A stretch of DNA of 64,000 nucleotides, from positions 248,001-312,000 of the forward strand of contig NZ_BMFQ01000001.1 of the NCBI RefSeq assembly GCF_014638915.1. The letters are read 5' to 3'. The notes under the pieces are model-generated. The model saw nothing but the letters and a program-made list of their open reading frames with translations, ran no database searches and was not told the DNA's origin. Positions 1 to 44,165 of this stretch are shown piece by piece (the stretch's first letter is position 1; every line of letters begins with the position of its first letter). The DNA comes from Xanthomarina arctica. Its GTDB lineage: Bacteria > Bacteroidota > Bacteroidia > Flavobacteriales > Flavobacteriaceae. The translations under genes and the position numbers were made by a program.

Positions 1-234
1 GGTTTGGATTTCAGATTTTTTATAGTTTTTCCAATTTTTCTGAAGAACGTATTCTGCCAATTCAGCGTCTCGTGAAAAAATGGCATAATTACCTAACCCA
101 ATATTAAGTTTAAAAGTATCACCATGCTTTTCAAAATTTTCATGATGAAAAGGCAACGGGTTATTCAATATTTTTATGGCTTGCCTTAAAAAGGTAAATG
201 TAGAAACTTCTGGTATTTTCTTAATTTGGGTCAT
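1..234 (-). CDS. cytochrome P450, N-terminal part only (cut by window edge)
   Basis: The 78 visible codons begin [20 protein letters not shown] and continue with a segment (NPLPFHHENFEKHGDTF) typical of the N-terminal region of soluble bacterial P450s, where the proline-rich stretch is followed by the first beta-strands. The heme-binding Cys region lies outside the window, so activity cannot be judged. Its ATG overlaps the ruvB stop codon by one base (TAATG), which implies translational coupling in a ruvB-P450 operon. There is no signal peptide. The family call rests on recalled similarity of this N-terminus; the substrate is unknown. Confidence 0.75.
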   Translation of the reverse strand, partial: MTQIKKIPEVSTFTFLRQAIKILNNPLPFHHENFEKHGDTFKLNIGLGNYAIFSRDAELAEYVLQKNWKNYKKSEIQT

Positions 235-6374: not shown

Positions 6375-6911
6375 TTAATGTGCTTCTTCTTTTTCAATTA
6401 ATTTAATTTCTACCGCTCCAGTTTCTTTAAGTAAGTTTTCCAATTCGGTTTCGTTACCATGAACTGCAATTTCCATTAAGAAGTGATCATCTGTAGTTCT
6501 TAAATCAGGATTTTCAGCTTTTTTAAAGGGCCACATTCTACTTCTTAAGTAAAAGGTGATAACCATTAGGTGGGCCGCAAAAAATACCGTTAGTTCAAAC
6601 ATAATCGGCACAAAGGCTGGCATGTTTTCTATATAACTAAAACTTGGTTTACCACCAATGTTTTGTGGCCAGTCTTCTATCATGATAAAATTCATCATAG
6701 CAACGGCAACACATAAACCAACACAACCATATAAAAAAGCCGTAATTGCTAACCTTGTTGGCGCTAATCCCATGGCCTTGTCTAGTCCGTGAACTGGAAA
6801 AGGTGTGTATATTTCTTCAATGTGATATCTCTCTGCCTTTACCCTTTTAACGGCAGACATCAATACATCATCATCAGTATAAATAGCGTGAATTACTTTT
6901 GAAGTTTCCAT
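6375..6911 (-). CDS. actD: Alternative complex III subunit ActD (DUF3341)
   Basis: This small membrane subunit of ACIII packs against the NrfD-like subunits. It shows a cytoplasmic N-terminal domain (IHAIYTDDDVLMSAVKRVK, with PFPVHGLDKAMGL), then two transmembrane segments (about 54-77 and 101-122) and a C-terminal tail ending in ELENLLKETGAVEIKLIE. It is typical DUF3341 in length (178 aa) and layout. Only 4 nt separate it from actC, so the two are translated together. Confidence 0.92.
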   Translation of the reverse strand: METSKVIHAIYTDDDVLMSAVKRVKAERYHIEEIYTPFPVHGLDKAMGLAPTRLAITAFLYGCVGLCVAVAMMNFIMIEDWPQNIGGKPSFSYIENMPAFVPIMFELTVFFAAHLMVITFYLRSRMWPFKKAENPDLRTTDDHFLMEIAVHGNETELENLLKETGAVEIKLIEKEEAH

Positions 6912-6915
6912 ATTG

Positions 6916-8407: not shown

Positions 8408-11400
8408 TTATGCTTCGGTTGTATTTCTCACTTTAGTATGATACTGCACATTTGGTTTTGTGCCTACATGTTCTAATAAGTGATACATACGATTATCTAC
8501 TAAAAGTTTTGCAACTTTACTTTCTTTATCATTGATGTCTCCAAATACCATTGCTCCATTGCCACATGCAGAAGAACAAGCTGTTTGGAATTCACCATCT
8601 TTAATTTCACGTCCATCACGTTTGGCATCAAGAATAGTTTTTTGTGTTTTTTGAATACACATAGAACATTTTTCCATAACACCACGAGATCTAACTACAA
8701 CATCTGGATTTAATACCATACGTCCTAAATCGTCATTCATATAGTAATCAAACTCATCATTCTCATTATATAAGAACCAGTTGAATCTACGTACTTTATA
8801 AGGACAGTTGTTTGCACAGTAACGTGTACCTACACAACGGTTATAAGCCATGTGATTTTGACCTTGACGTCCATGAGAAGTTGCTGCCACAGGGCATACA
8901 GTTTCGCAAGGAGCATGATTACAATGTTGACACATTACCGGTTGGAAAGCTACTTGTGGGTTTGCCGCAGCAGATTCCATTTCCTCAAGAGCATCAATAA
9001 TTGCTAATCCTTTGGTATCGTCTTTTTTAGTATTATCCCCTGCAAACGTATCTTCAGAAGAATAATATCTATCAATACGCAACCAGTGCATATCGCGACT
9101 CTTACGCACTTCTTCTTTACCTACAACTGGTACGTTATTTTCTGCATGACAAGCTATTACACACGCCCCGCATCCTGTACAAGCATTCAAATCGACTGAT
9201 AGGTTGAAGTGATGACCGATAGAACGATCAAATTCATCCCATAAATCCACATCTGGTGAAGTAACCGGAGTTTCAACATGATTTAAAGATACTACAGGAA
9301 CAGCATTCCAAGCAGATTGCTCTTTTGTATTAAAAATCTCTAAAGTGGTTTCTCTAATAATGTCTCCACGACCCATTAAAGTATTATGCAACTGTACACT
9401 TGCAAATTCGTGCATTCCAGATGCTGCTGCAACACTTACATTTTGTACGGTATTAAAATCTTGGTACAACACATATGCGTTAACACCAGTTTTCATTTCA
9501 TTTTTCAATCCAGCTTTTCTACCATAACCAAACGAAAGACCAACAGATCCTTTTGCTTGTCCTGGTTGAATAATTACTGGCACATTTTCTACAGTAACCC
9601 CATTTACAGTCACGTTTGCATAACTACCATCTAAGCCACCATTAGCGACATGTTCGTTTTTTAATCCCAATGCTTCAGCATCAGCTTTTGAAACAGTTAA
9701 ATAGTTATCCCAAGTTGTTCTTGTAATAGGATCTGGAAACTCTTGTAACCATGGGTTATTGGCTTGTTGACCATCTCCCATTCCTACTTTAGAGTATAAT
9801 GTTAATTCCATACCTTCAGAAGTCGCCGAACCGATTAAGGCTTTAGCGGCCGAAATACCAGTGGCAACAGATACTCCTGATAAATTACCAGTTGTTGTTG
9901 TGGTTGAAGATGATGTAGAAGTAACATACTCATCTTTATCTTCATCTTTAATTCCAACTCCTACGGCTGCATCATGAATAATACCTCCAACTAAAGTTCT
10001 ATCTTTTTTCTCTTTTAAAACGCTAGAAGAAGTTTCAACAGTTTCTGTTGAAACAGTATTAGATCCACCCACAGAAGTAGTTCCTTTTACAAAAACTCCA
10101 TCGTGTAAAGCTTGGCTAAATGATGTACTACCTAAAATACTATCATTCCAAGTTTGTTTTATATAATCGTGGTAAGAAATATCATTTCCAGTCCAAACTA
10201 ATAAAGCATCTTGAAATTGCATGGTATCAAATAAAGGACGAATAGTTGGTTGCATTAAAGCAAAATGTCCCTTTTTGATTTCAACATCTCCCCATGATTC
10301 TAAATAATGAGGTGCTGCTGCAATATATTGTGTTTGCGTAGAAGTTTCATCTGCTTTCAAAGAGAAAGTTACAGACAAATCTGTTTGCGCTAAACCTTCA
10401 GCAAATGCTGAAGCATTTGGCAATGTATATAGTGGATTAACACCACTCATAATAATAGCTCCTACTTTACCTGCATTCATATCAGCAATTAAAGTATTTA
10501 CAGCTTTATCGCTACCTTGTCTTGTTTTTATTGGTGTAGAGGCATCAAATGCTTTAGAATTTAAATACTCATTAATTTCTAATACAACAGTTTGTGCATT
10601 CATATCTTGAATACCAGTTACTGCAACACCTTTACTTCCTGCACTTTTAAGTTGAGAAGCTGCTTTACTTACTGCTTCTAATATATGTGCTGGTAAATCT
10701 ACAGAAACAGATCCACCAACTACTTCGCTATATAATTTAGCTAAAACTAATTTTTGTTGACTTGGAGTTAATGGTACACGTTTGTCTGCATTGGCTCCAG
10801 TTAATGACATGTTCGATTCAAATTGAATATGACGAGACATTTTTCCTTTAGCAGGAATACGCCCTACAGCATAGCCAGAGTCAAAACCACCACCTTGCCA
10901 ATCGCTAAGAAAATCTGCTCCAACTGAAACAATTACTTCAGCTTTAGAGAAATCGTAATTAGCTAATCCTCTCTCATTATATTTAGCTTCAAAAGCGTCT
11001 AATGATTCAGATTCTGAAATGGCATCATAAACTACATGATTTACGTTTCCGAATTTCTGCTTAAAATCTCCAATTAATCTTGAAGTAGATGGACTAGCAA
11101 ATGTTTGAGTTAATAAAACTATTTGTTTTCCAGAAGCACTAAGTTCAGTTAATTTTAGACTTACTTCTGAATTTAAATCTTCCCATGAAACATAACCTTC
11201 TCCTTTAACAGGACCCTGCATTCTCAAACTATCGTACAAACCTAAAACCGATGCATTTACTCTGGCATTTGCTCCACCAGTTGCGGATGCCATAGTATTG
11301 TTTTCGATTTTAATTGGACGACCTTCACGAGTTTTTACTAATACGCTAGCAAAATCAAAACCATCTGCAATTGTTGTTGCATAGTAATTAGCAACACCAG

Positions 11401-29565: not shown

Positions 29566-30795
29566 TTATGCCAAATCTTTAGATTTTTTTAACTCTATCA
29601 CGGTAATTTCTGGCCAAATCCCCACTCTACCGGGATAACCTAAGTATCCAAACCCTCTATTTACATTAATATACTGGCCCATTTCTTTATAAATTCCAGC
29701 CCAATATTTATAACGCCATTCTATAGGACTCCATTTTATCCAACCTGGAATTTCTATTCCAAACTGCATACCATGAGTATGACCACTTAAGGTTAATTGG
29801 TATTTATAATCGTCGCCAATAACCACATCTTCCCAATGAGACGGATCATGACTCATTAAAATTTTAAAGTCGTCTTTATCGATGTTTTCAGCAGCCTTTT
29901 TTAAATCTCCTGCCTTTTTAAAAACACCTCTTCCCCAGTTCTCAACACCAACTAAAGCCAAACGCTCACCATTTTTTTCTATAAAACGACTTTCATTTAG
30001 CAACAAATCGAATCCAATATCTTTCTGGATTTGTTTTAATTCCTCGAGGTTTGCCTGTTTTTCTTCCTTTGTATCCCACTCCACATAATCGCCGTAATCA
30101 TGGTTACCAAGGATGGAAAAAACACCATCAGTCGCTTTCAGTTTATTAAAAACATCTTTCCAAGGCAACATTTCTGAGGATTTGTTATTGACCAAATCGC
30201 CAGTAAAAAGAATCACATCAGATTTTTGTTCGTTAGCTAAAGCAACGGCATATTCAACTTTCTCTCTATCATCGAAACTTCCAGAATGTATGTCACTAAG
30301 TTGTGTAATCTTGTAGCCGTCGAAGGCTTGGGGTAAATCGTCAAAATGCAAGGTGTATTTTAGAACTCGAAAATCATATTTTCCCTTATACATACCATAT
30401 AATAAAGAAGAAAAAGGAATAGCGGCCAAACCTAAAGCAATCTGACTAACAAACCTTCGTCTAGAAGGCACGTGGTAATTTCTTTTAGAAGATATAAATT
30501 TATGGTACAAGCCAGCTATAAATCTAACAATATCCTCACTTAATAAAATGAGTGAAATTATCAAAGTAAAAGACAAAAAAGTTAGTAAAAATCCAAAGGC
30601 CCAACTTTTAGGTTGAGAGAGCACGCGACTATTAGAAGCCAAGGTAAATTCAAATATAAAATTACCTGCAACTAATAAAGCAAGACCAATAAAAATGAGA
30701 TATACCCATTTATTTTTAGTGAGGGTTTTTATGGCTTGGTAACCGTAAACCACCAAAAAAATATAGGCAATTGCCAAAAGAATGGAGCGTAACAT
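29566..30795 (-). CDS. membrane-anchored metallophosphoesterase
   Basis: Three to four N-terminal transmembrane segments (about 3-22, 30-50, 66-90, 116-134) are followed by a calcineurin-like phosphoesterase domain with the full metal-site series: QLSDIHSGSFDD, TGDLVNN, GNHDYG, SHDPSHW and SGHTHGMQFG. The C-terminus has VNRGFGYLGYPGRVG, typical of the YkuE/YaeI-like group. The substrate is unknown; lipid or nucleotide phosphodiesters are candidates. The ATG at 30795 is preferred over a TTG two codons earlier. It is apparently transcribed alone. Confidence 0.9.
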   Translation of the reverse strand: MLRSILLAIAYIFLVVYGYQAIKTLTKNKWVYLIFIGLALLVAGNFIFEFTLASNSRVLSQPKSWAFGFLLTFLSFTLIISLILLSEDIVRFIAGLYHKFISSKRNYHVPSRRRFVSQIALGLAAIPFSSLLYGMYKGKYDFRVLKYTLHFDDLPQAFDGYKITQLSDIHSGSFDDREKVEYAVALANEQKSDVILFTGDLVNNKSSEMLPWKDVFNKLKATDGVFSILGNHDYGDYVEWDTKEEKQANLEELKQIQKDIGFDLLLNESRFIEKNGERLALVGVENWGRGVFKKAGDLKKAAENIDKDDFKILMSHDPSHWEDVVIGDDYKYQLTLSGHTHGMQFGIEIPGWIKWSPIEWRYKYWAGIYKEMGQYINVNRGFGYLGYPGRVGIWPEITVIELKKSKDLA

Positions 30796-30898
30796 ATTCA
30801 AAATTTAAACAAAGGTAATTGAATAGTTTCATTCCCATTGATTTACAAAAAACTTTAACCATCTGTTAAGATATGCCTCAACTTGAAGTAAGTGATTT

Positions 30899-32305
30899 TT
30901 AAAACCATTTAATGGTTAAATCAACTATTTTTTGTTTCCAATTAGTATAAGGAGGCGTTAATAAATCTACCGCTCCAATGGTGTGCTGTTTTAAAACCGA
31001 TCGCTGATTAGCAAATTCTAAAAACCCAAAATAACCATGAGACTTTCCAATACCACTATTATTAGAACCTCCAAAAGGTAAATTATGATTTAAAAATTGT
31101 AATAAATTATGATTTACGCACGTACTTCCTGCTCTTGTATTTTGAATTATATAATCAATGGCTTTTTTCTTTTTACTAAAAATATAAAGAGCCAAAGGCT
31201 TTTCTTTTGAATTGATATAAGTTATAGCCTCTTCAATGGATTTATAGGTTTTTATAGGTAAAATAGGGCCAAAAATCTCTTCCTGCATCAAGGTTGCATC
31301 CTCCGTTAAATTACTTACTAAAGTTGGTTGTATATAACCATCTGATGCATTAAAGCTTCCACCAAACTCAACAGTACTTCCTTTAGACTTGGCGTCTTCC
31401 AAGCCACCTTTTAATCTTTCAAAATGTTTGTTGTTAACTATGCGACTATAAGAATTAGATTCTTCTGGATTTTCAGAATAAAATGAACTTACTTCGTTTT
31501 TAAAACAGGTTATAAAATCTGCTTTAAGAGACTCATGAAGAAGCACATAATCTGGTGCAATACAGGTTTGTCCTGCATTGGTAAATTTTCCATAAACAAT
31601 TTTCTTAACCGCTTTTTCAAGATGTGCAGAATCATCAATTATTGAAGGCGATTTACCCCCTAACTCTAGGGTTACAGACGTTAAATGCTGTGAAGCCGCT
31701 TTCATAACTATTTTTCCAACTGCTGGCGAACCAGTAAAGAAAATATGATTAAACGGTAACTTCAATAACTCCTGAGACACTTCCACTTCACCTTCAACTA
31801 AAGCAATTTCATTTTCATCAAAAAGTTCAGACACTATTTTAGCCATGACTTTAGATGTATGAGGTGTCATTTCCGAAGGCTTTAAGATAACCGTATTACC
31901 TGCCGCAATAGCAGAAACCAAAGGACCAAAGGTTAGATTGATTGGATAATTCCATGGAGAAATAATCAAACACACACCTTTAGGCTCATTAACAATATAC
32001 GAACTAGCGCCTAACAGAGCCAATGGCGTATCTACTTGTTGGTTCTTTAACCAAGATTTTAGATTTTGCTTTACAAAGTTAATTTCATCAATTACCGGGT
32101 AAAGTTCCGTTAGATCCGTTTCAAGTTGTGGCTTTTTAAAGTCTTTAAAAATAGCTTCCCGAATTTCCTGTTTATAGGTTACTTCAAGTGCTTTTTTTAA
32201 GCTATTTAATTTTGCAATCCGTTGTTTATAAGACGTATTTCCAATTTGAAACTGATTGGCTTTTTGCTTGTTAAATAAATTAGAATATGTATTATTATCA
32301 ATCAT
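30899..32305 (-). CDS. NAD(P)-dependent aldehyde dehydrogenase
   Basis: This is an aldehyde dehydrogenase of the class 3-like type, with a short N-terminus and a hydrophobic C-terminal tail (LTIKWF) that may touch the membrane. The catalytic Cys248 is in FTNAGQTCIAPDY and the general base Glu214 in VTLELGGKSP; NAD-site residues appear in ISPWNYP and FFTGSPAVG. The ATG at 32305 is used; a GTG 18 nt earlier would overlap cphA. It starts 7 nt after the cphA stop, so it is in the same operon. The substrate is not evident, and a link to cyanophycin metabolism is only contextual. Confidence 0.92.
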   Translation of the reverse strand: MIDNNTYSNLFNKQKANQFQIGNTSYKQRIAKLNSLKKALEVTYKQEIREAIFKDFKKPQLETDLTELYPVIDEINFVKQNLKSWLKNQQVDTPLALLGASSYIVNEPKGVCLIISPWNYPINLTFGPLVSAIAAGNTVILKPSEMTPHTSKVMAKIVSELFDENEIALVEGEVEVSQELLKLPFNHIFFTGSPAVGKIVMKAASQHLTSVTLELGGKSPSIIDDSAHLEKAVKKIVYGKFTNAGQTCIAPDYVLLHESLKADFITCFKNEVSSFYSENPEESNSYSRIVNNKHFERLKGGLEDAKSKGSTVEFGGSFNASDGYIQPTLVSNLTEDATLMQEEIFGPILPIKTYKSIEEAITYINSKEKPLALYIFSKKKKAIDYIIQNTRAGSTCVNHNLLQFLNHNLPFGGSNNSGIGKSHGYFGFLEFANQRSVLKQHTIGAVDLLTPPYTNWKQKIVDLTIKWF

Positions 32306-32312
32306 TTTATAA

Positions 32313-34952
32313 TTAATCTGCACTCATTAACTCTCCTCGAGATTCTTGTTCCTTAAACTTTTGAACCAAGGCCAAAGCATCCGGAATAACATCGCTACAT
32401 AAAATTATAAGCGATCCTTTAACAGCGTTTTTAACCGCAAAGGTTATGGCTTCCTTTTCTGATGGAATAATGGTTGTTTTCTTATTTGGATCTTTCATTT
32501 GAATACCATCATTCAAAAGCTTGATAAGTTCCTCTTCAGTTCTACCTCTCAAACGTTTATCTTGACGAATGATGATTTCATCAAACATATCGGCCGCAAT
32601 GCTTCCAACTTGATTTGTGTCTTCATCTCGTCTATCTCCTACTCCAGCAATAATTCCTACTTTTACGGTAGCATCTAGTTCGTCGGTAAAATTCTTTAGA
32701 GCTAACATCCCTGCAGGATTATGTGCATAATCTAAAAGAATGGTGAAATTTTCAAACTCAAATAAATTAAGTCTTCCTGGGGTTTGTGTTGCTGAAGGAA
32801 TGAATGTTTCCAAAGCGGCTTTCATATCTTCAATACTAAAACCTTGAATGTTTGCTGTTAAAATAGCTGGTAACACATTTTGAATCATAAACTTAGCCTT
32901 TCCTCCATAAGTTAGAGGAATATTTTCAGCTTTCATAATTCTCATTTTCCATTCGCCTCTACAAATAGTTACGTACCCATTTTCATAAACCGCAGTAATA
33001 CCACCAATACGTTGTAAGGCTTTTATTCTAGGATTATTTTCATCCATAGAAAATAAGGCTACATTACAGTTCACTGTTCTACGCATTTCATATACCAAGT
33101 CGTCGTCGGCATTTAAAATAGCATAACCATCTGGCAATACCGTTTCTGGAATCACTCCTTTTACCTTGGCCAATTGCTCAACGGTATGAATACCTTTTAA
33201 ACCTAAATGATCTGCTGCTACATTAGTAACAATACCTATATCGCATTTTTTAAATCCGAGTCCAGCACGTAATAAACCACCTCTAGCACTTTCAAGAACG
33301 GCAAAATTTACCGTTGGGTCTTTAAGTACAAATTCGGCACTGGCAGGTCCGGTACAATCTCCTGTCATTAATAATCTGTTTTGGATATACACACCATCAC
33401 TGGTTGTATAACCTACACGAAAGCCATTCATTTTTGCCATATGGGCAATTAATCGAGTTGTTGTAGTTTTTCCATTGGTTCCTGTAATGGCAACAATTGG
33501 AATACGTCCTGTATTCCCTTTAGGAAATAATTTATCGATAACATGTCCTGCAACGTTTCTTGGCAAGCCTTTTGTTGGCGCCAAATGCATTCTAAATCCT
33601 GGGCCAGCGTTTACTTCTAAAACGGCTCCACCAGTTTCAGATAAAGGTTTTGAGATGTCTGTGGTAGCAATATCAATCCCGCAAATATCTAAATCAATAA
33701 TTTTTGAAATACGTTCCGCCATGGAAATATTAGAAGGATGTACAATATCTGTAACATCTTCAGCAGTACCTCCAGTACTTAAGTTTGCTGTATCTTTTAA
33801 AAGCAGAATCTCGTCTTTTGGAATAATAGATTCCAAAGTGTATCCTGCATCTTTTATAATAGTAAGTGTTAATTCGTTAATTGTAATTTGTGTGAGCACA
33901 TTTTCATGTCCATAACCACGTCTTGGATCTTTATTAACTTCGTCTACTAATTCTTGAACAGTTAATTTTCCGTTTCCAACAACATGTGCAGGTGTGCGTT
34001 TTGCAGCTGCAACTAGTCTGTTATTGATAACTAGAAGACGATAATCGTCTCCTTTTATAAATTTTTCAACTATAATGGCGCCACTACGAGAACTTTCCTT
34101 AGCATGATTAAAGGCAACAACAGCATCTTCATAATTTTGAATATCGACTGTAATGCCACGTCCATGATTTCCATCTACTGGTTTAATAACTAGCGGAAAA
34201 CCAACATAGCGACAGGCATCTTTTAAGCTACTTTCTCTTCTAATAATATCACCTTTAGGCACTTCTACTTCTGCCTGTTCTAATAAGAATTTAGTATCTT
34301 CTTTATCGCAAGCTAATTCTACTCCAATACTACTTGTCTCACTTGTTACTGTAGCTTGGATACGCTTTTGATTTGCACCATAACCTAATTGACAAAGTGA
34401 ATATTTATTTAAACGAATCCATGGAATCCCTCTTGCTTCTGCTTCTTCTATAATAGAACCCGTACTAGGACCTAAACGAGAGTCTTCACGAAGTTCACGC
34501 ATTTTTTGGATATCGTCTGTCAAATCATAAGCTTCCCCGGAAACCAGGGCTTCGCAGATTTTCACAGAAACCTCGGCCGCAAAACGGCCAACAGATTCTT
34601 CCATATAAGCAAAAACCACATTATATACGCCTACTTCTCCATAACCACGTGTTCTCCCAAAGCCAACATCCATTCCTGCAAGTGTCTGAATTTCTAAAGC
34701 TATGTGTTCAATAATATGACCCATCCAGGTGCCTTCTTCTACACGTTGAAAGAAACCTCCAGGCTCACCAACGGAGCATCTATGTTCGAACATGGTAGGG
34801 AATAAGTTTTTCAATCTGTCGTAAAACCCATCTATTTTATTGGATGGTAATTCTTCCATCTCTTCGAGATCAAGAACCATAACTATTAATTTATGTCGTC
34901 TAACCGACCAATAGTTTGGCCCTCTCATTGCGTTAATTTCTCTTATTATCAT
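32313..34952 (-). CDS. cphA: cyanophycin synthetase
   Basis: This ATP-dependent ligase makes multi-L-arginyl-poly-L-aspartate. The order matches CphA1: an N-terminal domain beginning MIIREINAMRGPNYWSVRRH with GPSTGSIIEEAEARGIPW; an ATP-grasp domain (IKPVDGNHGRGI, about 257-267; EVNAGPGF, about 446-453) that adds Asp; and a Mur-ligase-like domain with the P-loop GTNGKTTTT (491-499) and DYAHNPAGM that adds Arg. At 879 aa it matches CphA1 rather than the shorter CphA2. It is followed by the aldehyde dehydrogenase; the cyanophycinase and isoaspartyl peptidase genes lie within 4 kb upstream. Confidence 0.95.
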   Translation of the reverse strand: MIIREINAMRGPNYWSVRRHKLIVMVLDLEEMEELPSNKIDGFYDRLKNLFPTMFEHRCSVGEPGGFFQRVEEGTWMGHIIEHIALEIQTLAGMDVGFGRTRGYGEVGVYNVVFAYMEESVGRFAAEVSVKICEALVSGEAYDLTDDIQKMRELREDSRLGPSTGSIIEEAEARGIPWIRLNKYSLCQLGYGANQKRIQATVTSETSSIGVELACDKEDTKFLLEQAEVEVPKGDIIRRESSLKDACRYVGFPLVIKPVDGNHGRGITVDIQNYEDAVVAFNHAKESSRSGAIIVEKFIKGDDYRLLVINNRLVAAAKRTPAHVVGNGKLTVQELVDEVNKDPRRGYGHENVLTQITINELTLTIIKDAGYTLESIIPKDEILLLKDTANLSTGGTAEDVTDIVHPSNISMAERISKIIDLDICGIDIATTDISKPLSETGGAVLEVNAGPGFRMHLAPTKGLPRNVAGHVIDKLFPKGNTGRIPIVAITGTNGKTTTTRLIAHMAKMNGFRVGYTTSDGVYIQNRLLMTGDCTGPASAEFVLKDPTVNFAVLESARGGLLRAGLGFKKCDIGIVTNVAADHLGLKGIHTVEQLAKVKGVIPETVLPDGYAILNADDDLVYEMRRTVNCNVALFSMDENNPRIKALQRIGGITAVYENGYVTICRGEWKMRIMKAENIPLTYGGKAKFMIQNVLPAILTANIQGFSIEDMKAALETFIPSATQTPGRLNLFEFENFTILLDYAHNPAGMLALKNFTDELDATVKVGIIAGVGDRRDEDTNQVGSIAADMFDEIIIRQDKRLRGRTEEELIKLLNDGIQMKDPNKKTTIIPSEKEAITFAVKNAVKGSLIILCSDVIPDALALVQKFKEQESRGELMSAD

Positions 34953-35209
34953 AAAATTGTATGGTTTTGCTAATTAAATTTGAACTATCGTAAATATACA
35001 GAAATGTTTGAGAAAAAAAAGTCATCTACAATTGTTTTAAAAAAGATAAAAAACCCTTTACCTGAAACGCAGATAATTGTATTTTAATTATTGAGGTTGC
35101 AAATTTAAACCTCCTAATAAAATTCATTTAAATTCTAAATAGTCCATTTCTATCCTGTGTGTTTCTATTAGACAAATAGACTTTCATTTTTCAAACAATC
35201 AATCTATAT

Positions 35210-35716
35210 TTATTGTTGGCAAACAGATTTTGTTAATGGGGTAGTTGAAGAATAATTTATAGCATTAATATCTTTAAACATAGTTCCTTCCTCATTTAAC
35301 TCACCATAACCTTCTATCAACTGATTCACTTTAAGCACAAATGCTACTTGTCTAGTCGATTCCTTTCCTTCCGATTTGAAAGTGTAATTCCCCACAAGTT
35401 TATCGCCTTCAAGTTGTCCTTTAAAAACACCTATGTTTTTGTCCTTTTCTTTTAAACTATATGTCAAAAACCCTTCAACTGGATTATCGTTTTTTGTGAT
35501 ATCTAAATTAATCATATTGCCATTTTCCTTATATAAATAACAGCCTATTTGTAGGTTATGGAGGTTTGGTGATATAACCTCAGCTTCTTCGATGGTTTCA
35601 TCAATAATTATTTCATCTGGTTTCTCTTCATTATTTTTACAATTAAAAAATAACGCAAGAATGCATGTTAATAACAATATTTTTTTGCTTGCTGGCAAGA
35701 GATTGGAATGTATCAT
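35210..35716 (-). CDS. putative lipoprotein, unknown function
   Basis: 168 aa. The N-terminus is a hydrophobic lipoprotein-type signal ending in LFFNC (Cys26; a loose lipobox of the kind tolerated in this phylum), then an acidic linker (EEKPDEIIIDETIEEAE). The rest is predicted beta-rich (GCYLYKENGNMINLDI, EGFLTYSLKEKD, LVGNYTFKSEGK). I do not recognise a family. The ATG at 35716 is preferred over an in-frame TTG just upstream. It follows the META lipoprotein gene by 18 nt, so they form one operon between cphA and cphB. About 257 bp without a gene separate it from cphA. Confidence 0.7.
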   Translation of the reverse strand: MIHSNLLPASKKILLLTCILALFFNCKNNEEKPDEIIIDETIEEAEVISPNLHNLQIGCYLYKENGNMINLDITKNDNPVEGFLTYSLKEKDKNIGVFKGQLEGDKLVGNYTFKSEGKESTRQVAFVLKVNQLIEGYGELNEEGTMFKDINAINYSSTTPLTKSVCQQ

Positions 35717-35734
35717 CAATTTAGGGTTTATATG

Positions 35735-36532
35735 TTAGTCTACTTTTTTAAATATAATTAAATTTTCGGAAGGATTAGATAGAGTCAATCTATTATTCTC
35801 AATAGAATATCTGATACTACTTTGAAGCGCTCTTAAAAACTCATACTCTTTGTTTGCTGGCCCACAAATCCTTTCGGTGGTTACCAAATTTGAAAAACGA
35901 AGTAAATCTTTCTCAAAAAAGATGGTTCCATTCATCTGATTACAACCTGCGAAACCTAAAAATGTGTTTTGTGCACTGTAAATTTCAATGTTTGGGAATT
36001 CTTGACTGAAATCTTTGTTTGTAATTTCCCTGCCATTTAAAGATTCGAGCACCCAAATATCGTGCAATCTATAATCCGTAATATATTTTCCACACCCTTC
36101 CAAGGTTTCATAAACTGTTTCTGTATTTTGCTTCTTTTCTATAGAAACGGCATAAGGAGAAATTTCGCCAGACATATCGTTTGCACACTCTTTTTGTGTG
36201 ATTTGAATTGCCATTTTACTAGATTCTGTTTCAATTTGGTAACGTTTCACATTACTGTCTTGAGCCAAAATTGGTTTTACATTAGGCATTCTAACAACAT
36301 TCGTTGGAGTTCTATAAACTATAGAATCACTAAAGATTTCAAGGCTCCAAAAAGGCTCTGAGCCAGATCCAACAAAATATGGTTTTTGATTTATTGTTTT
36401 AATTTCCTTTTTAGAAATAGATGTCTCAATTGAATCTTTCACATTAATAACAACTTCATTATTAAGCTTCTTCTGTTTACAACTTAGAATTAAACAAAGT
36501 ATCATACTTGTTAAAATCAAATAATTTTTCAT
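35735..36532 (-). CDS. lipoprotein with COG3650-like and META (HslJ-like) domains
   Basis: The lipoprotein signal ends in LILSC (Cys18). An N-terminal domain contains GSGSEPFWSLEIFSDS, the signature of COG3650-type beta-barrel proteins. The C-terminal half (about 155-262) is a META/HslJ domain: IWVLESLNG, GFAGCNQMNGTI, TTERICGP and LSNPSENLIIFKK. META proteins are envelope stress or inhibitor-resistance factors, but a precise role is unknown. It diverges from cphB and leads the two-lipoprotein operon. Confidence 0.82.
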   Translation of the reverse strand: MKNYLILTSMILCLILSCKQKKLNNEVVINVKDSIETSISKKEIKTINQKPYFVGSGSEPFWSLEIFSDSIVYRTPTNVVRMPNVKPILAQDSNVKRYQIETESSKMAIQITQKECANDMSGEISPYAVSIEKKQNTETVYETLEGCGKYITDYRLHDIWVLESLNGREITNKDFSQEFPNIEIYSAQNTFLGFAGCNQMNGTIFFEKDLLRFSNLVTTERICGPANKEYEFLRALQSSIRYSIENNRLTLSNPSENLIIFKKVD

Positions 36533-36606
36533 GAACTAAATTTAAAAAAACACGTATTAAAATTATCAATAAAATGATAATTATGATTTTTTTAACCAAA
36601 TAAGTT

Positions 36607-36614
36607 TAATTTTG
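36607..36614 (+). promoter_or_regulatory. candidate -7 box for cphB
   Basis: TAATTTTG fits TAnnTTTG and lies 22 nt ahead of the cphB ATG. No TTG is present at the expected -33 position. Confidence 0.4.
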
Positions 36615-36636
36615 CGTCCTAAATGAATAACAATTA

Positions 36637-37506
36637 ATGAGTCAATTTAAAATGAAAGGAACACTTATTCCTATTGGTGGAAATGAAGATAAAGGAATGG
36701 GAAGTGACGAAAAACACACCCTAGAATTTATAGGTGAAGGTATTTTATACCATGTTGTTGAAGAGGCTGGAGGTGTAGACGCTAATATTGTTATAATCCC
36801 TACGGCATCAAGTATCCCTAAGGAAGTTGGTGAAAATTACATGACAGCTTTTACAACTTTAGGCTGTAAAAATGTGACTGTTTTAGACATAAGAAGCAAA
36901 GCAGATTCTGAAAAACAAACAGCTATAGCTTTAATAAAAGAAGCCAATTGCATTATGTTTTCTGGAGGAGATCAATCTAAAATCACCAATAAAATTGGAG
37001 GAACCATGATACATGAAATCATGTTAGATCGTTTTCAAAATGAAGAAGGCTTTGTTATTGCTGGCACGAGTGCTGGAGCCATGGCCATGACCAATGAGAT
37101 GATTGCTGGAGGAAGTCCTACGGAAGCTTTTGTAAAGGGAGCGGTAACTATGTATAAAGGATTAGGGCTTATTCCTGAACTTATTATAGATACCCATTTT
37201 ATTCAAAGAGGCCGATTTGGTCGTGTCTCTGAAGCAGTTGCCAAGTTTCCAAATCTAATAGGTTTCGGACTAGCAGAAGACACAGGAATGATTATTAAAA
37301 ACGGAAACGATTGTACCGTTATTGGTTCTGGAATGGTGATTGTTTTTGATGGACAAAAACTAACTCATAACAATGAAAAAGTTTTAGACGAAGGCACACC
37401 TATGACCATTGCTAACTTAACAGTTCATGTGCTTTCTAATGGCGATAACTACAGTATTAAAAACAGAAATGTTTCTGTTCTGCCAATAGAAGCCGATTTT
37501 ATATAA
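36637..37506 (+). CDS. cphB: cyanophycinase
   Basis: This serine exopeptidase of the peptidase S51 family releases beta-Asp-Arg dipeptides from cyanophycin. The nucleophile Ser145 is in the elbow AGTSAGAMAM; SGGDQ at 109-113, IDTHFIQRGRFGR at 184-196 and GLAEDTG at 211-217 are the other family motifs. It has no signal peptide, so acts in the cytoplasm on stored polymer. At 289 aa it is slightly longer than the cyanobacterial enzyme. It is convergent with the isoaspartyl peptidase gene, which would split its product. Confidence 0.93.
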   Translation: MSQFKMKGTLIPIGGNEDKGMGSDEKHTLEFIGEGILYHVVEEAGGVDANIVIIPTASSIPKEVGENYMTAFTTLGCKNVTVLDIRSKADSEKQTAIALIKEANCIMFSGGDQSKITNKIGGTMIHEIMLDRFQNEEGFVIAGTSAGAMAMTNEMIAGGSPTEAFVKGAVTMYKGLGLIPELIIDTHFIQRGRFGRVSEAVAKFPNLIGFGLAEDTGMIIKNGNDCTVIGSGMVIVFDGQKLTHNNEKVLDEGTPMTIANLTVHVLSNGDNYSIKNRNVSVLPIEADFI

Positions 37507-37529
37507 ATTCCTTCGAAGGCAGGAATCTC
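37507..37529 (+). repeat. ATTCC/GGAAT hairpin element after cphB
   Basis: ATTCCTTCGAAGGCAGGAAT followed by CTC begins at the first base after the cphB stop codon. Arms ATTCC and GGAAT are perfect. Confidence 0.65.
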
Positions 37530-37652
37530 TTGAATAGAAGTTTTTAACTATAAAATGATTCTTATTCTTGAGTTCGAGCTTGAAACGACATCCTTTTCAT
37601 TTTTCATAAAAGAGATAGTGAAAGAATAAAGCCATAAAAATGAAATAAAGAG

Positions 37653-37675
37653 ATCCCTTTTTCCAAAGGGATTTT
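37653..37675 (+). terminator. hairpin between cphB and the isoaspartyl peptidase gene
   Basis: The 8-bp stem ATCCCTTT / AAAGGGAT with a 4-nt loop is followed by a short T-run on the plus strand. It touches the end of the converging gene. Confidence 0.45.
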
Positions 37676-38605
37676 CTACTTATAAATAGAAATTTCCTCT
37701 GTCCCCATAGAAGATTTACTGGCGCGATACATTCCTTCCGTATTAAATGGCATTGCTATATTTCCTTGAGAATCTACTGCTATTAAACCGCCATCGCCAC
37801 CTAATTCCAAGATTCGCTTGTTTATAACTTCGTTAGAAGCATCTTCAAGAGACATGTTTTTATGTTCTATTAAACAAGCCACATCATAAGCCACAACACC
37901 TCTAATAAAAAACTCTCCACTTCCAGTACAAGAAATAGCACAAGTTTTATTGTTGGCATAATTTCCAGCTCCAATCATTGGTGAATCACCAACCCGTCCC
38001 CATTTTTTATTAGTCATTCCTCCAGTTGATGTTGCTGCAGCAATATTCCCTTCTTGGTCGCAGGCTACGGCTCCAACTGTTCCAAATTTGGAATCTTTCT
38101 TTTTAGCATGATCTAACTGAAAACTATCTGTATCCTTAATTTCCAACCATTGGTTATGCCTTAATTCATCATAAAAATATGAAGCATCTTCTAGTGTGTA
38201 CTTTAATTCTTCAGCAAAACGCATGGCACCCTCACCTGCTAGGAATACATGTTCACTTTTTTCCATCACGTCTTTAGCCAAACTCACGGGGTTTTTAATA
38301 CCCGTAATCAAACTTACAGCTCCTGCATTCAACGTTTTACCATCCATAATACTGGCATCCATTTCATGCGTTTCTTCGGCTGTAAATACCGCTCCTTTTC
38401 CTGCATTAAACAAAGGTGAATCTTCTAAAACAGTTACTGCTTTTTCCACAGCATCTATAGCAGATCCTCCATTTTCCAATAAATAATACCCAGCATCAAG
38501 CGCATCTTTTAAAGCTTGCTTATATTTTGTTTCAAGTTCTGGAGTCATCATTCCTTTTACTAAAGTTCCTGCACCTCCATGGATGGCAATTGAAAATGTT
38601 TTCAT
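37676..38605 (-). CDS. isoaspartyl peptidase / plant-type L-asparaginase
   Basis: This N-terminal-nucleophile hydrolase cleaves itself into two chains, freeing Thr176 (GTVGAVACD, after the 160-174 linker) as nucleophile. Other family motifs are IHGGAGTL, NAGKGAVFT, RVGDSPMIGAGNYA (substrate Arg/Asp pair) and SCTGSGEFFIR. It hydrolyses beta-aspartyl dipeptides, including beta-Asp-Arg made by cyanophycinase, to free amino acids. There is no signal peptide, unlike the periplasmic enzymes of some relatives. 309 aa. Its position beside cphB points to cyanophycin breakdown; an asparaginase side activity is possible. Confidence 0.92.
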   Translation of the reverse strand: MKTFSIAIHGGAGTLVKGMMTPELETKYKQALKDALDAGYYLLENGGSAIDAVEKAVTVLEDSPLFNAGKGAVFTAEETHEMDASIMDGKTLNAGAVSLITGIKNPVSLAKDVMEKSEHVFLAGEGAMRFAEELKYTLEDASYFYDELRHNQWLEIKDTDSFQLDHAKKKDSKFGTVGAVACDQEGNIAAATSTGGMTNKKWGRVGDSPMIGAGNYANNKTCAISCTGSGEFFIRGVVAYDVACLIEHKNMSLEDASNEVINKRILELGGDGGLIAVDSQGNIAMPFNTEGMYRASKSSMGTEEISIYK

Positions 38606-38823: not shown

Positions 38824-41706
38824 ATGTCAGATCAAAAACGCCTTTTCTTAGTCGATGCTTACGCCTTAATTTTTCGTGGGTATTACGCTTTTATAAAAAA
38901 CCCTAGAATTAATTCTAAAGGGGAAGATACTTCAGCCATTATGGGATTTATGAATTCCCTTTTGGATGTTATAAAACGTGAAAGACCCGATCATTTAGCC
39001 GTTTGTTTTGACAAAGGAGGTAGTGCAGATCGCGTTGAAATGTTTTCGGAATACAAAGCCAATAGAGACGCTACTCCCGAAGGCATAAAAACGGCCGTCC
39101 CATATATCCTTGAAATCTTAAAAGCCATGCACATTCCTATTATGGTAAAAGAAGGATTTGAGGCTGATGACGTTATTGGAACTCTTGCTAAAAAAGCCGA
39201 AAAAGAAGGTTACAAAACCTATATGGTAACTCCGGATAAAGATTTTGCACAATTGGTTTCAGAAAACATCTTTATGTATCGCCCCGTATTTGGAGGTGGT
39301 TATGAAACTTGGGGGATTCCTGAAGTACAAAAGAAATTTGAAGTAACAGACCCATTACAAGTCATTGACTTTTTGGGCATGATGGGAGATGCTTCTGATA
39401 ATATTCCTGGCCTTCCTGGTGTTGGTGAAAAAACCGCCAAGAAGTTCTTAGCTACCTATGGCAGTATGGAAAATCTGTTAGCAAACACCCATGAACTAAA
39501 AGGTAAAATGAAAGAGAAAATTGAGGCATCTAAAGAATTGGGGATGCTTTCAAAAAAACTAGCAACCATCATGCTCGATGTTCCTGTGGAATTTGATGCC
39601 AAAGATTTTGAAATGTCTGAACCAGATATTCCTAAAGTTACAGAAATTTTTCAAGAATTAGAATTTAGACGTTTAATTGATAATTTTGTTAAAACCTTTG
39701 CTTTGGAGAATTCGGCTCCTTCCAATCAATTATCCGAAACTTCAAAAACGGAGAATACCCCTAAAGCGACTCCAAAGGAAGAAGCGTCGGCCGGAGCAGG
39801 ACAATTTTCTCTGTTTGGTGCTTCGGCTCCGCTCAGCAACCAATCGGCTCCGCTCAGCAAACAAAACAATGAACTGGAAACTGAGTACACCAGAAATACC
39901 ATTGCAACAACATCGCATTTCTATCAAAGTGTTGCTTCAGGCATGGCAACGCAACTTTTTATAAAGAATTTAATGTCTCAAAGCAGTGTTTGTTTTGATA
40001 CAGAAACTACGGGTTTAAATCCCATAGAAGCGCAATTAGTTGGGATTGCCTTTTCCTGGGACATTGGAAAAGGATTCTATTTGCCTTTCCCAGAAGCCAA
40101 AAATGAAGCTCAAGAACTTATAGAACAATTACGTCCGTTTTTTGAATCTGAACAGATTGAAAAAGTGGGACAGAATTTAAAATACGATATTAAAGTCCTT
40201 AGAAAATACAACATTAAAGTAAAAGGTAAGCTATTCGACACCATGTTAGCACATTATCTAATCAATCCAGATATGCGACATAATATGGATGTGTTGGCGG
40301 AAACCTATTTGAATTATACCCCTGTTTCTATAACGGAATTAATTGGTAAAAAAGGAAAGAATCAGCTTTCTATGAGAGATGTTCCTTTAGAAAAACAAAC
40401 GGAATATGCTGTTGAAGATTCAGATATTACGCTTCAGTTAAAAGAACATTTTACCAAAGAATTAGGAGAAGCCAATACACAAAAGTTGTTTGACGATATT
40501 GAAATCCCGCTTCTAAGAGTGCTTGCCGATATGGAATTAGAAGGTATTAATTTGGATACCGAATTTCTAAACTCACTATCTGAAGCTCTTAATAACGATA
40601 TTTTAAATCTTGAAAAAGAGATTTATGCTACTGCTGGCGAGGAATTCAATATTGCTTCGCCAAAACAATTAGGGATTGTTCTTTTTGAAAGATTAAAATT
40701 GGTAGACAAGCCTAAAAAGACTAAAACTGGACAATATGCTACTTCCGAAGATATTTTATCTTACTTGGCAAAAGACCATGAGATAATTAAGCATATTTTA
40801 GAATACAGAGGGTTAGCAAAATTAAAAAGTACTTATGTAGATGCACTTCCACTACAAGTAGAACCTGAAACAGGACGTGTACATACAGATTATATGCAAA
40901 CGGTTGCTGCTACAGGACGTTTAAGTAGTAATAATCCGAATTTACAAAACATTCCAATTAGAACCGAACGTGGCCGACAAGTTAGAAAAGCATTTATTCC
41001 AAGAAATGAAGATTACGTTTTATTAGCTGCCGATTATTCTCAAATAGAATTACGTATTATCGCTGCTTTGAGTGAAGAAGAAACCATGATTGAAGCCTTT
41101 AAAAATGGCGAAGATATTCATGCCTCAACCGCTTCAAAAGTTTTCAATGTGCCTTTGGAAGAAGTCACTAGAGAACAACGTGGTAATGCCAAAACGGTTA
41201 ATTTTGGAATTATCTATGGCGTTTCTGCTTTTGGTTTAAGCAACCAAACAGATTTATCTCGTGGGGAAGCCAAAGAATTGATTGATACCTATTATGAAAC
41301 CTATCCTAAATTAAAAGCTTACATGAGCAAGCAAGTCGATTTTGCTAGAGATCATGGGTATGTCCAAACGGTTTTAGGAAGACGCAGGTATTTAAAAGAT
41401 ATTAATTCTAGAAATGCTGTGGTTCGAGGCGCTGCAGAACGAAATGCCGTTAATGCTCCAATTCAAGGAAGTGCGGCAGATATTATAAAAATAGCCATGA
41501 TTAACATTTATAACAAACTGGAAGCAGGAAATTATAAATCTAAAATGCTCTTACAAGTACATGATGAATTGGTTTTTGATATCTATAAACCAGAACTTGA
41601 AGAACTAACAACTTTAATTAAAACGGAAATGGAAGGTGCGTTTATTATGGATGTGCCTTTAGATGTTGAAGTAGATACTGGCGTTAATTGGTTGGAGGCG
41701 CATTAG
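38824..41706 (+). CDS. polA: DNA polymerase I
   Basis: The order is a 5'-nuclease domain (about 1-295), a linker, a 3'-5' exonuclease domain and a family A polymerase domain. The exonuclease looks active: FDTETTGLNP (about 391-400), NLKYDIK and the YAVEDSD tail are intact. Polymerase motif A is DYSQIELRI (about 737-745), motif B is the RGNAKTVNFGIIYG helix and motif C is VHDELVFD (about 912). The linker near residue 333 contains two 7-residue repeats, SAPLSNQ and SAPLSKQ, encoded by a 21-bp direct repeat. At 960 aa it is near the phylum norm. The gene is divergent from the isoaspartyl peptidase. Confidence 0.98.
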   Translation: MSDQKRLFLVDAYALIFRGYYAFIKNPRINSKGEDTSAIMGFMNSLLDVIKRERPDHLAVCFDKGGSADRVEMFSEYKANRDATPEGIKTAVPYILEILKAMHIPIMVKEGFEADDVIGTLAKKAEKEGYKTYMVTPDKDFAQLVSENIFMYRPVFGGGYETWGIPEVQKKFEVTDPLQVIDFLGMMGDASDNIPGLPGVGEKTAKKFLATYGSMENLLANTHELKGKMKEKIEASKELGMLSKKLATIMLDVPVEFDAKDFEMSEPDIPKVTEIFQELEFRRLIDNFVKTFALENSAPSNQLSETSKTENTPKATPKEEASAGAGQFSLFGASAPLSNQSAPLSKQNNELETEYTRNTIATTSHFYQSVASGMATQLFIKNLMSQSSVCFDTETTGLNPIEAQLVGIAFSWDIGKGFYLPFPEAKNEAQELIEQLRPFFESEQIEKVGQNLKYDIKVLRKYNIKVKGKLFDTMLAHYLINPDMRHNMDVLAETYLNYTPVSITELIGKKGKNQLSMRDVPLEKQTEYAVEDSDITLQLKEHFTKELGEANTQKLFDDIEIPLLRVLADMELEGINLDTEFLNSLSEALNNDILNLEKEIYATAGEEFNIASPKQLGIVLFERLKLVDKPKKTKTGQYATSEDILSYLAKDHEIIKHILEYRGLAKLKSTYVDALPLQVEPETGRVHTDYMQTVAATGRLSSNNPNLQNIPIRTERGRQVRKAFIPRNEDYVLLAADYSQIELRIIAALSEEETMIEAFKNGEDIHASTASKVFNVPLEEVTREQRGNAKTVNFGIIYGVSAFGLSNQTDLSRGEAKELIDTYYETYPKLKAYMSKQVDFARDHGYVQTVLGRRRYLKDINSRNAVVRGAAERNAVNAPIQGSAADIIKIAMINIYNKLEAGNYKSKMLLQVHDELVFDIYKPELEELTTLIKTEMEGAFIMDVPLDVEVDTGVNWLEAH
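39823..39864. repeat. 21-bp direct repeat in the polA linker
   Basis: TCGGCTCCGCTCAGCAA is repeated perfectly at 39823-39839 and 39844-39860, in a 21-bp period, keeping the frame. A third partial copy TCGGCTCC lies at 39713-39720. Confidence 0.85.
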
Positions 41707-41808: not shown

Positions 41809-43074
41809 GTGGCTTTAAAAGAGAAAATATCGATTGAAAATTTTGAAGACAAAAAATTCAAAATCAGACTTGTAGAATCAGAAAAAGATACAGAGGCTGC
41901 CTTTACACATTATTTAAATAATCATAAAAATGGAGTTTCTAAAGTTTATAAACCTGACGCATTAGAACATGTCAAAAATTTATTTGAATACAAATTTCCT
42001 GATGTTGAATTATCTGATGTAGCAGCTGAGGAAGCTCTTCAATATTTAATTTTTCAACAAGAAGAGATACCTTTTCCTGCTCCAAAAAGACCTGACTTTA
42101 AATTCATTGATCTTTTTGCGGGAATTGGTGGGTTTAGACTAGCGTTTCAAAACCTTAAAGGTAAATGCGTATTTACAAGTGAGTGGGATAAATATTCAAA
42201 ACAAACTTATCAAGCCAATTTTGGTGAAGTTCCTTTTGGAGATATTACTAAAAAATCTACTAAAGAATACATTCCTGACGGATTTGATGTTTTATGTGCT
42301 GGGTTTCCTTGTCAAGCATTTTCAATTGCAGGAAAGCGTGGAGGTTTTGAAGACACAAGAGGAACACTGTTTTTTGATGTTGCTGAAATAATTAAAAAGA
42401 AAAAGCCAAAGGCTGTTTTTTTAGAAAATGTAAAAGGATTAAGAAGTCATGATAAAGGAAAAACTTTGGCTACAATCTTAAATGTTTTAAGAGAAGATTT
42501 AGGATATTTTGTACCAGAGCCACAAGTAATGAATGCAAAGAAATTCGGAGTTCCACAAAACAGAGAAAGAATTTTCATTGTTGGGTTTAGAAAAGATTTG
42601 GGAATTACAGAATTCGAATACCCAAAACCAATTAATAGAAAAGTAACATTAGAGGATATTTTAGAATCGGAAACAGTTTCTGTAAAATATTATTTATCTA
42701 AAACTTACATAAACACCTTAAGAAATCACAAAGCACGACACGAAAGTAAAGGTAATGGGTTTGGATATGAAATAATTCCAAATAATGGAACTGCAAACGC
42801 AGTTGTTTGTGGAGGCATGGGAAGAGAGAGAAATTTAGTTTATGATTTTAGACTAAAAAATTTCACGCCAATAACTCATATTAAAGGAGATGTCAATAGA
42901 GAAGGAATTCGAAAAATGACTCCTAGAGAATGGGCTAGATTACAAGGGTTTCCTGACAACTATAAAATTGTAGTTTCGGATGCTCAAGCTTATAAGCAAT
43001 TTGGTAATTCTGTTGCGGTTCCCGCGATTCAAGCAACCGCTAAAAAAATCATAGAAAAACTTAACTTTTTATGA
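41809..43074 (+). CDS. DNA (cytosine-5) methyltransferase, HpaII-like
   Basis: This is the methyltransferase of a type II R-M pair. The m5C motifs are in order: FIDLFAGIGGF (SAM site, 99-109), GFPCQAFSIAG (catalytic Cys168), FLENVKG (ENV, 206-208), QNRERIFIVG (about 250-259) and YKQFGNSVAVPA near the C-terminus. The target-recognition region (about 270-370, with KARHESKGNGFGYEI) resembles the HpaII enzyme, which methylates CCGG. The start is a GTG; no early in-frame ATG exists. The N-terminal 95 residues before motif I are longer than in HpaII. The stop overlaps the endonuclease start (ATGA). Confidence 0.93.
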   Translation: MALKEKISIENFEDKKFKIRLVESEKDTEAAFTHYLNNHKNGVSKVYKPDALEHVKNLFEYKFPDVELSDVAAEEALQYLIFQQEEIPFPAPKRPDFKFIDLFAGIGGFRLAFQNLKGKCVFTSEWDKYSKQTYQANFGEVPFGDITKKSTKEYIPDGFDVLCAGFPCQAFSIAGKRGGFEDTRGTLFFDVAEIIKKKKPKAVFLENVKGLRSHDKGKTLATILNVLREDLGYFVPEPQVMNAKKFGVPQNRERIFIVGFRKDLGITEFEYPKPINRKVTLEDILESETVSVKYYLSKTYINTLRNHKARHESKGNGFGYEIIPNNGTANAVVCGGMGRERNLVYDFRLKNFTPITHIKGDVNREGIRKMTPREWARLQGFPDNYKIVVSDAQAYKQFGNSVAVPAIQATAKKIIEKLNFL

Positions 43075-44165
43075 TTACAGGAAACAAAGGTGAATGGAGT
43101 GAAATTTACACTCTTTTTAAATTACTTGGGGACAAACAATTATCTCTTGGAAATAAAGATATTGAAAAATTAGAAGGAATAGTTTACCCTGTCTTACGGA
43201 TTCTAAGAACTGAAAACAACAGAGATTTTGAATATGCAATTCTAGATGAAATTATTCTTATTTCTGGTGGAGAAGAAGTTTTAAAGATTGCAATTTCAGA
43301 TTTTAAAGAAAAAGCTAAGTTCTTACTTGCAAAAATAAAAGATAATAAAGAAACAACTTTTCCAGTCCCCGAGGTTGAGGTATTTATGCAATCTATTAAT
43401 TGTCTTTCTTTAAAAGCAGGTTCAACTACTAAAACTGATATAACAATCGTAGTTCATGACCAAAGAACAAATCAACAACCAACTCTAGGCTTTAGTATAA
43501 AATCACAATTAGGGGGCCCTTCTACTATACTTAATGCGGGAAAAACCACCAATTTTATTTTTAAAATTAGTGGAGCTATTGACGAAATGGAGATTGAGAG
43601 AATTAATTCAATGCTGGTCAAAAGAGGTAAAAAAGAATCTGCCGATTTGAAAGGAAGAGTCAAAGCTATTTATTCAAATAACAAAGAGCTTATATTCTTT
43701 AAAACCGAAAGACAAATATTTTCAAATAATTTAATTCTTATTGATAGTAGATTACCTGAAATATTATCACAAATTGTTTATGAATTTTATTCGAGTAACA
43801 ATTCAAAAATTTTCGACTTAGTAGAAAAAATAAGAACCAAAAACCCTTTAGAATTTGACATTTCGAACAAACATCAATTTTATGAATATAAAATTAAACG
43901 TTTTTTGACAGACATTGCATTAGGAATGATGCCTTCTAAAGTTTGGACTGGTAATTACGATGCAACTGGCGGATATTTAATTGTAAAAGAAAATGGAGAT
44001 ATTTTGTGTTATCATATCTACAATAGAAATGAATTTGAAGATTATTTGTTTAATAATACAAAACTTGAAACAGCTAGTTCTAGCAAACATAGTTTTGGAG
44101 TGATTTATGAGGAAAATAATGAGTTATATTTTAAACTAAATTTACAAATCAGGTTTATAAAATAG
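43071..44165 (+). CDS. HpaII-like type II restriction endonuclease
   Basis: The N-terminus NKGEWSEIYTLFKLLGDKQL and the core PTLGFSIKSQLGGPSTILNAG match my memory of the HpaII endonuclease family (R.HpaII cuts CCGG). The D-x(n)-S-x-K pattern around KTDITIVV...GFSIKSQLG may form the nuclease site. At 364 aa it is close to R.HpaII. It starts 4 nt inside the methyltransferase stop, giving tight coupling, so the methylase is made first. The pair sits between two conserved chromosomal genes, with nothing else between, as expected for a transferred R-M unit. Confidence 0.88.
   Translation: MITGNKGEWSEIYTLFKLLGDKQLSLGNKDIEKLEGIVYPVLRILRTENNRDFEYAILDEIILISGGEEVLKIAISDFKEKAKFLLAKIKDNKETTFPVPEVEVFMQSINCLSLKAGSTTKTDITIVVHDQRTNQQPTLGFSIKSQLGGPSTILNAGKTTNFIFKISGAIDEMEIERINSMLVKRGKKESADLKGRVKAIYSNNKELIFFKTERQIFSNNLILIDSRLPEILSQIVYEFYSSNNSKIFDLVEKIRTKNPLEFDISNKHQFYEYKIKRFLTDIALGMMPSKVWTGNYDATGGYLIVKENGDILCYHIYNRNEFEDYLFNNTKLETASSSKHSFGVIYEENNELYFKLNLQIRFIK

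Follow-up and report, generated by a model that had tools for sequence, protein, structure and literature searches.

A predicted cyanophycin storage and mobilization module at a recurrent chromosomal site in Flavobacteriaceae

The cyanophycin gene clusters of heterotrophic bacteria are catalogued and little tested. In a 2023 survey, 153 genomes had cphA1, a cyanophycinase gene and iaaA, and the three were clustered in 49 of them; all 86 complete Bacteroidota genomes with CphA1 also encoded a cyanophycinase, and IadA and/or IaaA were present in 22.1% of them (Sharon and Schmeing, 2023; PMC10206079). The IaaA and IadA enzymes tested there, both from clusters, were promiscuous, one of the queries came from a Pedobacter, and the beta-Asp-Arg dipeptidase of Bacteroidota was called undiscovered, an S9 peptidase being proposed as a lead (PMC10206079). 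Other reports concern single organisms: the genome description of Dyadobacter linearis mentions cyanophycin genes, in the passages on these genes without their order (PMC11573002), CphA of Flavobacterium psychrophilum was co-expressed with metalloproteases (PMC9723704), and a genus of Flavobacteriales from activated sludge has cphA (PMC10687191). The locus described here, from Xanthomarina arctica, belongs to this published kind, is well preserved and has Bacteroidota precedents; its host is in the same family as F. psychrophilum. As in the clusters of the survey, the same three activities are grouped; unlike in the survey's description of them, the isoaspartyl peptidase is a paralogue tied to CphA in a draw of family genomes, at a recurrent chromosomal site.

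The window is a stretch of 64,000 nucleotides of the X. arctica genome (3.9 Mb). An earlier note, made from the letters of this stretch, had claimed a complete set of cphA, cphB and an isoaspartyl peptidase gene within positions 30899–38605; this set was found, and all genes had been placed correctly. The cphA gene (32313–34952, reverse strand) encodes a CphA1 cyanophycin synthetase of 879 aa, cphB (36637–37506, forward strand) an S51 cyanophycinase of 289 aa, and iaaA (37676–38605, reverse strand) a predicted cytoplasmic Ntn (Asparaginase_2) isoaspartyl peptidase of 309 aa. Two lipoprotein genes, both on the reverse strand, are inserted between cphA and cphB, as the note had described: one product has 169 aa and matched no Pfam family above cut-off (35210–35719), the other has 265 aa and carries a META domain (35735–36532; PF03724, 63.7 bits). 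An aldehyde dehydrogenase (ALDH) gene encoding 468 aa lies 3' of cphA (30899–32305, reverse strand), also as described. The borders of the site are outside the pathway: polA on one side (38824–41706, forward strand), and on the other a block formed by a metallophosphatase gene (29566–30801, reverse strand) with trx and a pdaA-like gene. The gene order of the locus was found again in many genomes and is thus beyond chance. The promoter consensus applied was TTG-17..22-TAnnTTTG; it had 11 full matches window-wide, and none at the end of cphA or in three intergenic stretches of the locus, two of which were scanned on both strands. Further out, 3' of polA, genes for a C-5 cytosine methylase and an HpaII-type restriction endonuclease overlap by 4 nt (41809–44165; PF00145, PF09561).

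The synthetase had been described as CphA1-type with all three domains, and the N-terminal, ATP-grasp and Mur-ligase domains were all matched in Pfam. TIGR02068 aligned with residues 3–866 at 1249.4 bits (cut-off 850), and Synechocystis SuCphA1 (7lg5) with residues 7–863 at 988.9 bits. The active-site residues of SuCphA1 are C59, H79, E82, H83, H267, D585 and H586, and the N-domain motif Cx19HxxEH has been linked to primer-independent synthesis (PMC9262961). Like SuCphA1 (7lg5, 7txv), window CphA keeps every tested residue of the three active sites: C59/H79/E82/H83 of the primer-making N-domain site, with the same numbering, H263 of the G-domain (SuCphA1 H267) and D581/H582 of the M-domain (SuCphA1 D585/H586). 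It differs from SuCphA1 by two small gaps that put its numbering 4 off ahead of the G-domain site, and is known here from its sequence. The primer motif was present in 111 of the 118 CphA frames of the fetched loci, some of the remaining seven being partial frames; its presence in the window enzyme is ordinary. No other protein of the window genome matched PF18921, the CphA N-domain.

The two degradation enzymes were also recognized. CphB scored 225.6 bits with TIGR02069 (cut-off 126.6) and matched the structures 7uqv and 3en0; the catalytic serine claimed for it is Ser145, in a GTSAGA motif that starts at residue 143. IaaA scored 383.3 bits with PF01112 (cut-off 27) and 312 bits with 2zak. 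The catalytic and Asp-binding residues given for RhIaaA are T165, T183, R193, D196, S197, T216 and G217 (PMC10206079), and all seven are found in window IaaA at a constant offset of 11 (T176, T194, R204, D207, S208, T227 and G228), T176 being the nucleophile position. Window IaaA does not count as an equivalog of the Escherichia coli enzyme, because it scored 352.8 bits with the NCBI equivalog model for beta-aspartyl-peptidase (NF007589), under the cut-off of 567. Since this cut-off is missed and the clustered enzymes studied in the survey are promiscuous, window IaaA need not be specific. The absence of signal peptides from the three enzymes was supported by a leader scan, a crude measure and not a signal-peptide predictor: within the first 35 residues, the highest hydropathy of any 10-residue stretch was 1.57 for CphA, 0.73 for CphB and 1.13 for IaaA, whereas the two lipoproteins reached 3.16 and 2.78.

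We read the locus as a module that would store cyanophycin in the cytoplasm and mobilize it, and give this reading a probability of about 0.88. CphA1 would polymerize aspartate and arginine using ATP, probably priming itself through the metallopeptidase-like site of its N-domain; CphB would cut the polymer into beta-Asp-Arg dipeptides, which the Ntn peptidase encoded next to it would split into Asp and Arg. Storage and recycling by the module are predictions well supported by the encoded proteins, from which we infer that a polymer would be formed, that it would be composed of Asp and Arg (as opposed to Lys) and that it would store nitrogen.

The earlier note had concluded in favour of storage rather than scavenging. 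A cytoplasmic set for synthesis and degradation was indeed found, but the opposition was overstated, as the genome also encodes a second cyanophycinase, apparently exported, and a lipoprotein isoaspartyl peptidase. The former (G000:C3:571810-572520; L231:736-1587) has an apparent signal peptide, judged by eye, and scored 158.8 bits with TIGR02069, over the cut-off; the latter is encoded away from the cluster (G000:C1:746474-747442; L212). Because of these two proteins, the organism may also use cyanophycin from outside. They also provide the argument for a different reading of the cluster, in which the set would mainly handle imported or protein-derived isoaspartyl peptides and polymer synthesis would be secondary. 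This is very unlikely: both proteins are encoded elsewhere in the genome (on G000:C3 and in another part of G000:C1), whereas the enzymes of the cluster are leaderless, no transporter was present among the seven genes scanned (29566–38605), and both hydrolases of the cluster track the presence of CphA in the family draw presented below. Compared with a scavenging locus, which has an exported cyanophycinase, a dipeptidase and a transporter and no cphA, the window cluster has cphA and a leaderless cphB.

The family draw comprised 149 Flavobacteriaceae genomes, about one per genus, 30 of which encoded CphA. Orthologues of IaaA (at least 67% identity, the next match being at 61%) were present in 29 genomes, and orthologues of CphB (at least 61% identity, the next match being a 59% fragment) in the same 29. 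Both degradation genes were found in 29 of the 30 CphA-positive genomes versus none of the 119 CphA-negative genomes (Fisher P = 5e-30, uncorrected for relatedness). cphA, cphB and iaaA are one module, usually beside polA. The lone CphA-positive genome that had neither a cphB match nor an orthologue of the cluster iaaA was G095, which is 82% complete. At its locus (L094:8362-12081), the gene after cphA encodes an AstE/AspA-like protein of 315 aa (PF24827), which may be a dipeptide hydrolase of the CphZ type and act as a stand-in. In the genus and family loci taken together (n = 36), cphB was present within 5 kb of cphA in 34, IaaA in 33 and the AstE/AspA-like gene in 1, and 2 had no dipeptidase candidate.

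The IaaA of the cluster is distinct from its relatives elsewhere in these genomes. A second peptidase paralogue, 49–61% identical to window IaaA, was found in CphA-positive and in CphA-negative genomes. This is the lipoprotein paralogue: its copies had a hydrophobic leader in 11 of 11 compared and a lipobox, by a simple pattern, in 9 of 11; in a quick tree these 11 copies and one more formed a single clade (support 100), with the cluster-specific IaaA apart. As it co-occurs with CphA, unlike the lipoprotein paralogue, the cluster IaaA is the paralogue inherited with the polymer genes, which does not imply a particular chemistry, the clustered enzymes of the survey being promiscuous. None of the 17 positions that separate the cluster from the lipoprotein proteins was read as a specificity switch.

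The order polA, iaaA, cphB, cphA and flank recurred among the CphA-positive relatives. The same site was recognizable in genomes that lack the module. An ALDH orthologue was present in 15 CphA-negative genomes, and in 10 of these polA was near the ALDH gene, the cph genes being missing between them; in the other five, two loci are near a contig edge (L137, L146) and three have no polA within the fetched stretch (L142, L143, L145). G001, a CphA-negative genome of the same genus as the window, has polA, ALDH, metallophosphatase and trx genes in the order of the window minus the module. A genome without cphA, G048, has between polA and trx a cphB remnant that contains a stop (L148, near 9593-9913); as this remnant is in place, the module has been lost in at least that lineage. 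CphA and PolA distances across 26 loci were correlated (rho 0.48, with 0 of 2000 permutations as high), an agreement that suits mostly vertical descent across these loci, short of proof. The module is present or absent as a whole at this recurrent site. One genus therefore offers a natural comparison, the window genome with it and G001 without, from which the value of the storage polymer could be judged.

The earlier note had placed the ALDH in the cphA operon and proposed it and the two lipoproteins as partners of the pathway. The likely start of the ALDH gene is the ATG at 32305, 7 nt past the cphA stop, which was preferred over an overlapping GTG at 32323; because only 7 nt lie between the two genes, read-through from cphA into the ALDH gene is likely. 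The ALDH might accordingly be taken for a functional partner, for example one oxidizing an aldehyde of arginine catabolism, perhaps together with the lipoproteins. Besides the short gap, its position is regular, as it adjoined cphA in 6 of 6 other CphA-positive loci of the genus, in 8 of 29 other family loci, and in all 9 CphA-positive genomes of the family draw that have the orthologue (at least 54% identity, the next match being at 47%). The orthologue was also weakly enriched with CphA, being present in 9 of 30 CphA-positive versus 15 of 119 CphA-negative genomes (24 of 149 in all; P = 0.028, uncorrected for relatedness). However, 21 of the 30 CphA-positive genomes have no ALDH orthologue, and the 15 CphA-negative genomes do have it, 10 of them, including G001, with polA nearby; because of this adjacency of polA and ALDH genes in module-free genomes, a dedicated partner was rejected. 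The protein itself was closest to the NCBI model for the benzaldehyde dehydrogenase MdlD (418 bits, under the cut-off of 550) and scored lower with that for aminobutyraldehyde dehydrogenase (233.6 bits). As for the lipoproteins, most relatives do not have them: the META-domain gene was found at 2 of 6 and the 169-aa gene at 1 of 6 genus loci, and neither at the 29 other family cphA loci, among which L106 is a 4-kb contig, too small to include them, and L086 and L088 are also short. The lipoproteins are thus not retained beside cphA in relatives, as the earlier note had required of partners, and were rejected as conserved partners; the two genes represent an insertion seen in some members of the genus. 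A functional partnership of the ALDH or the lipoproteins is therefore unlikely. The adjacency of the ALDH gene to cphA, which holds in all CphA-positive loci of the genus, stands as described, while the partnership drawn from it is weak; the ALDH is most likely a bystander, a neighbour belonging to the flanking block, and the lipoproteins are most likely bystanders too.

In many relatives, the ALDH gene is adjoined by a gene group (e.g. L072:1706-6409) that was not seen there in the window; it encodes a GH92 enzyme, a carrier of the MFS family and an asparaginase-like protein of about 335 aa. This last protein was considered as a second cyanophycin peptidase and rejected. From its neighbours and an RR-type leader we take it for a glycosylasparaginase that belongs to a locus for glycan use, the name and the leader both being our own reading.

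Outside the reach of window-type IaaA, a different Ntn hydrolase was found beside cphB. This protein, here called type B, has 280 aa, scored 256.5 bits as a member of Asparaginase_2 and is 32–36% identical to window IaaA; by sequence, its closest solved structure is E. coli IaaA (120 bits, versus 64 for glycosylasparaginase). The predicted nucleophile of the L107 protein is T154. The place of type B is next to cphB in those Bacteroidota cyanophycin clusters that have no window-type IaaA (L107 at 6383-7225, L109, L111-L113, L115-L117, L119 and L232-L311). Type B was present in 12 of 198 genomes of a phylum draw (at least 64% identity, the next match being at 38%): nine are CphA-positive, with type B within the cluster in all of them, and three have no CphA. 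In the two CphA-positive Flavobacterium genomes of this unselected draw, type B replaces window-type IaaA; F. psychrophilum itself is known here from the published report only. Named genomes contain at least 571 relatives of type B. In the best 80 of these, which come mostly from near relatives of Flavobacterium and include two with odd MAG titles (Bifidobacterium, Nitrotoga), cphB was upstream of type B in 79, within 300 bases in 77, and cphA was in the fetched stretch in 65. The locus without cphB starts 545 bases from a contig end; 14 loci had cphB and no cphA in the fetched stretch, and in 3 of these 14 the flank on one side is shorter than 700 bases.

In the three CphA-negative genomes (L149, L150 and L151), type B adjoins a DcuC/YfcC-type carrier gene or is one gene off it, the carrier being identified by a scan in L151 and read by eye in L149 and L150. 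An RpiR-like regulator, read by eye in all three, is nearby as well. L151 also has an exported cyanophycinase-like gene beside type B (159.1 bits) and is a likely scavenging locus.

At the level of the class, CphA is widespread, being encoded by 161 of 395 genomes. From these 161 genomes, 60 loci were hand-picked, mostly one per genus and avoiding contig ends where possible. Within 5 kb of cphA, a limit by which IaaA genes 7 kb away in L105 and L125 were scored as none, 45 of the class loci had cphB, 20 had IaaA, 8 had type B and 32 had no candidate; of 21 loci of the phylum draw, 16 had cphB, 4 had IaaA, 9 had type B and 8 had no candidate. IaaA and type B were never found together within 5 kb in the 36 genus and family, 21 phylum and 60 class loci. 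In a CphA tree of 93 rows (Flavobacteriaceae loci thinned, with G095 dropped, and frames of less than 800 aa excluded), 17 type B clusters were in one supported part (24 rows, support 99) that also holds 4 IaaA clusters and 3 clusters lacking both, and at least two switches between IaaA and type B were counted.

We lean towards the view that dedicated Ntn hydrolases, encoded at a fixed place beside cphB, would carry out the last step of cyanophycin breakdown in many Bacteroidota, the window-type IaaA paralogue in most CphA-positive Flavobacteriaceae genera drawn and type B in Flavobacterium, Chryseobacterium, Moheibacter and others, which would fill part of the place of the undiscovered dipeptidase; type B might be specific for beta-Asp-Arg. 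As many cphB-positive class loci have no candidate at all, type B, itself a candidate for the Bacteroidota dipeptidase, is at most a part of the answer. In the 21 cphB-positive clusters that had no nearby IaaA or type B, no convincing recurrent substitute dipeptidase was seen; two of these loci have IaaA within 7.6 kb (L153 and L154), and an asparagine-synthetase-like gene, read from its start, was common to three. No S9 peptidase was recognized among the neighbour gene starts of cphA loci read by eye. No study of type B was found in open-licence PMC papers, a weak sign of novelty. The existence of a cphB-linked Ntn subfamily makes the question of the beta-Asp-Arg dipeptidase of Bacteroidota testable with a few purified proteins.

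Finally, second, divergent copies of cphA without cphB were observed in genomes that have a type B cluster (L108 and L110; G220 and G291); they are located near a gene that was read by eye as catalase-like.
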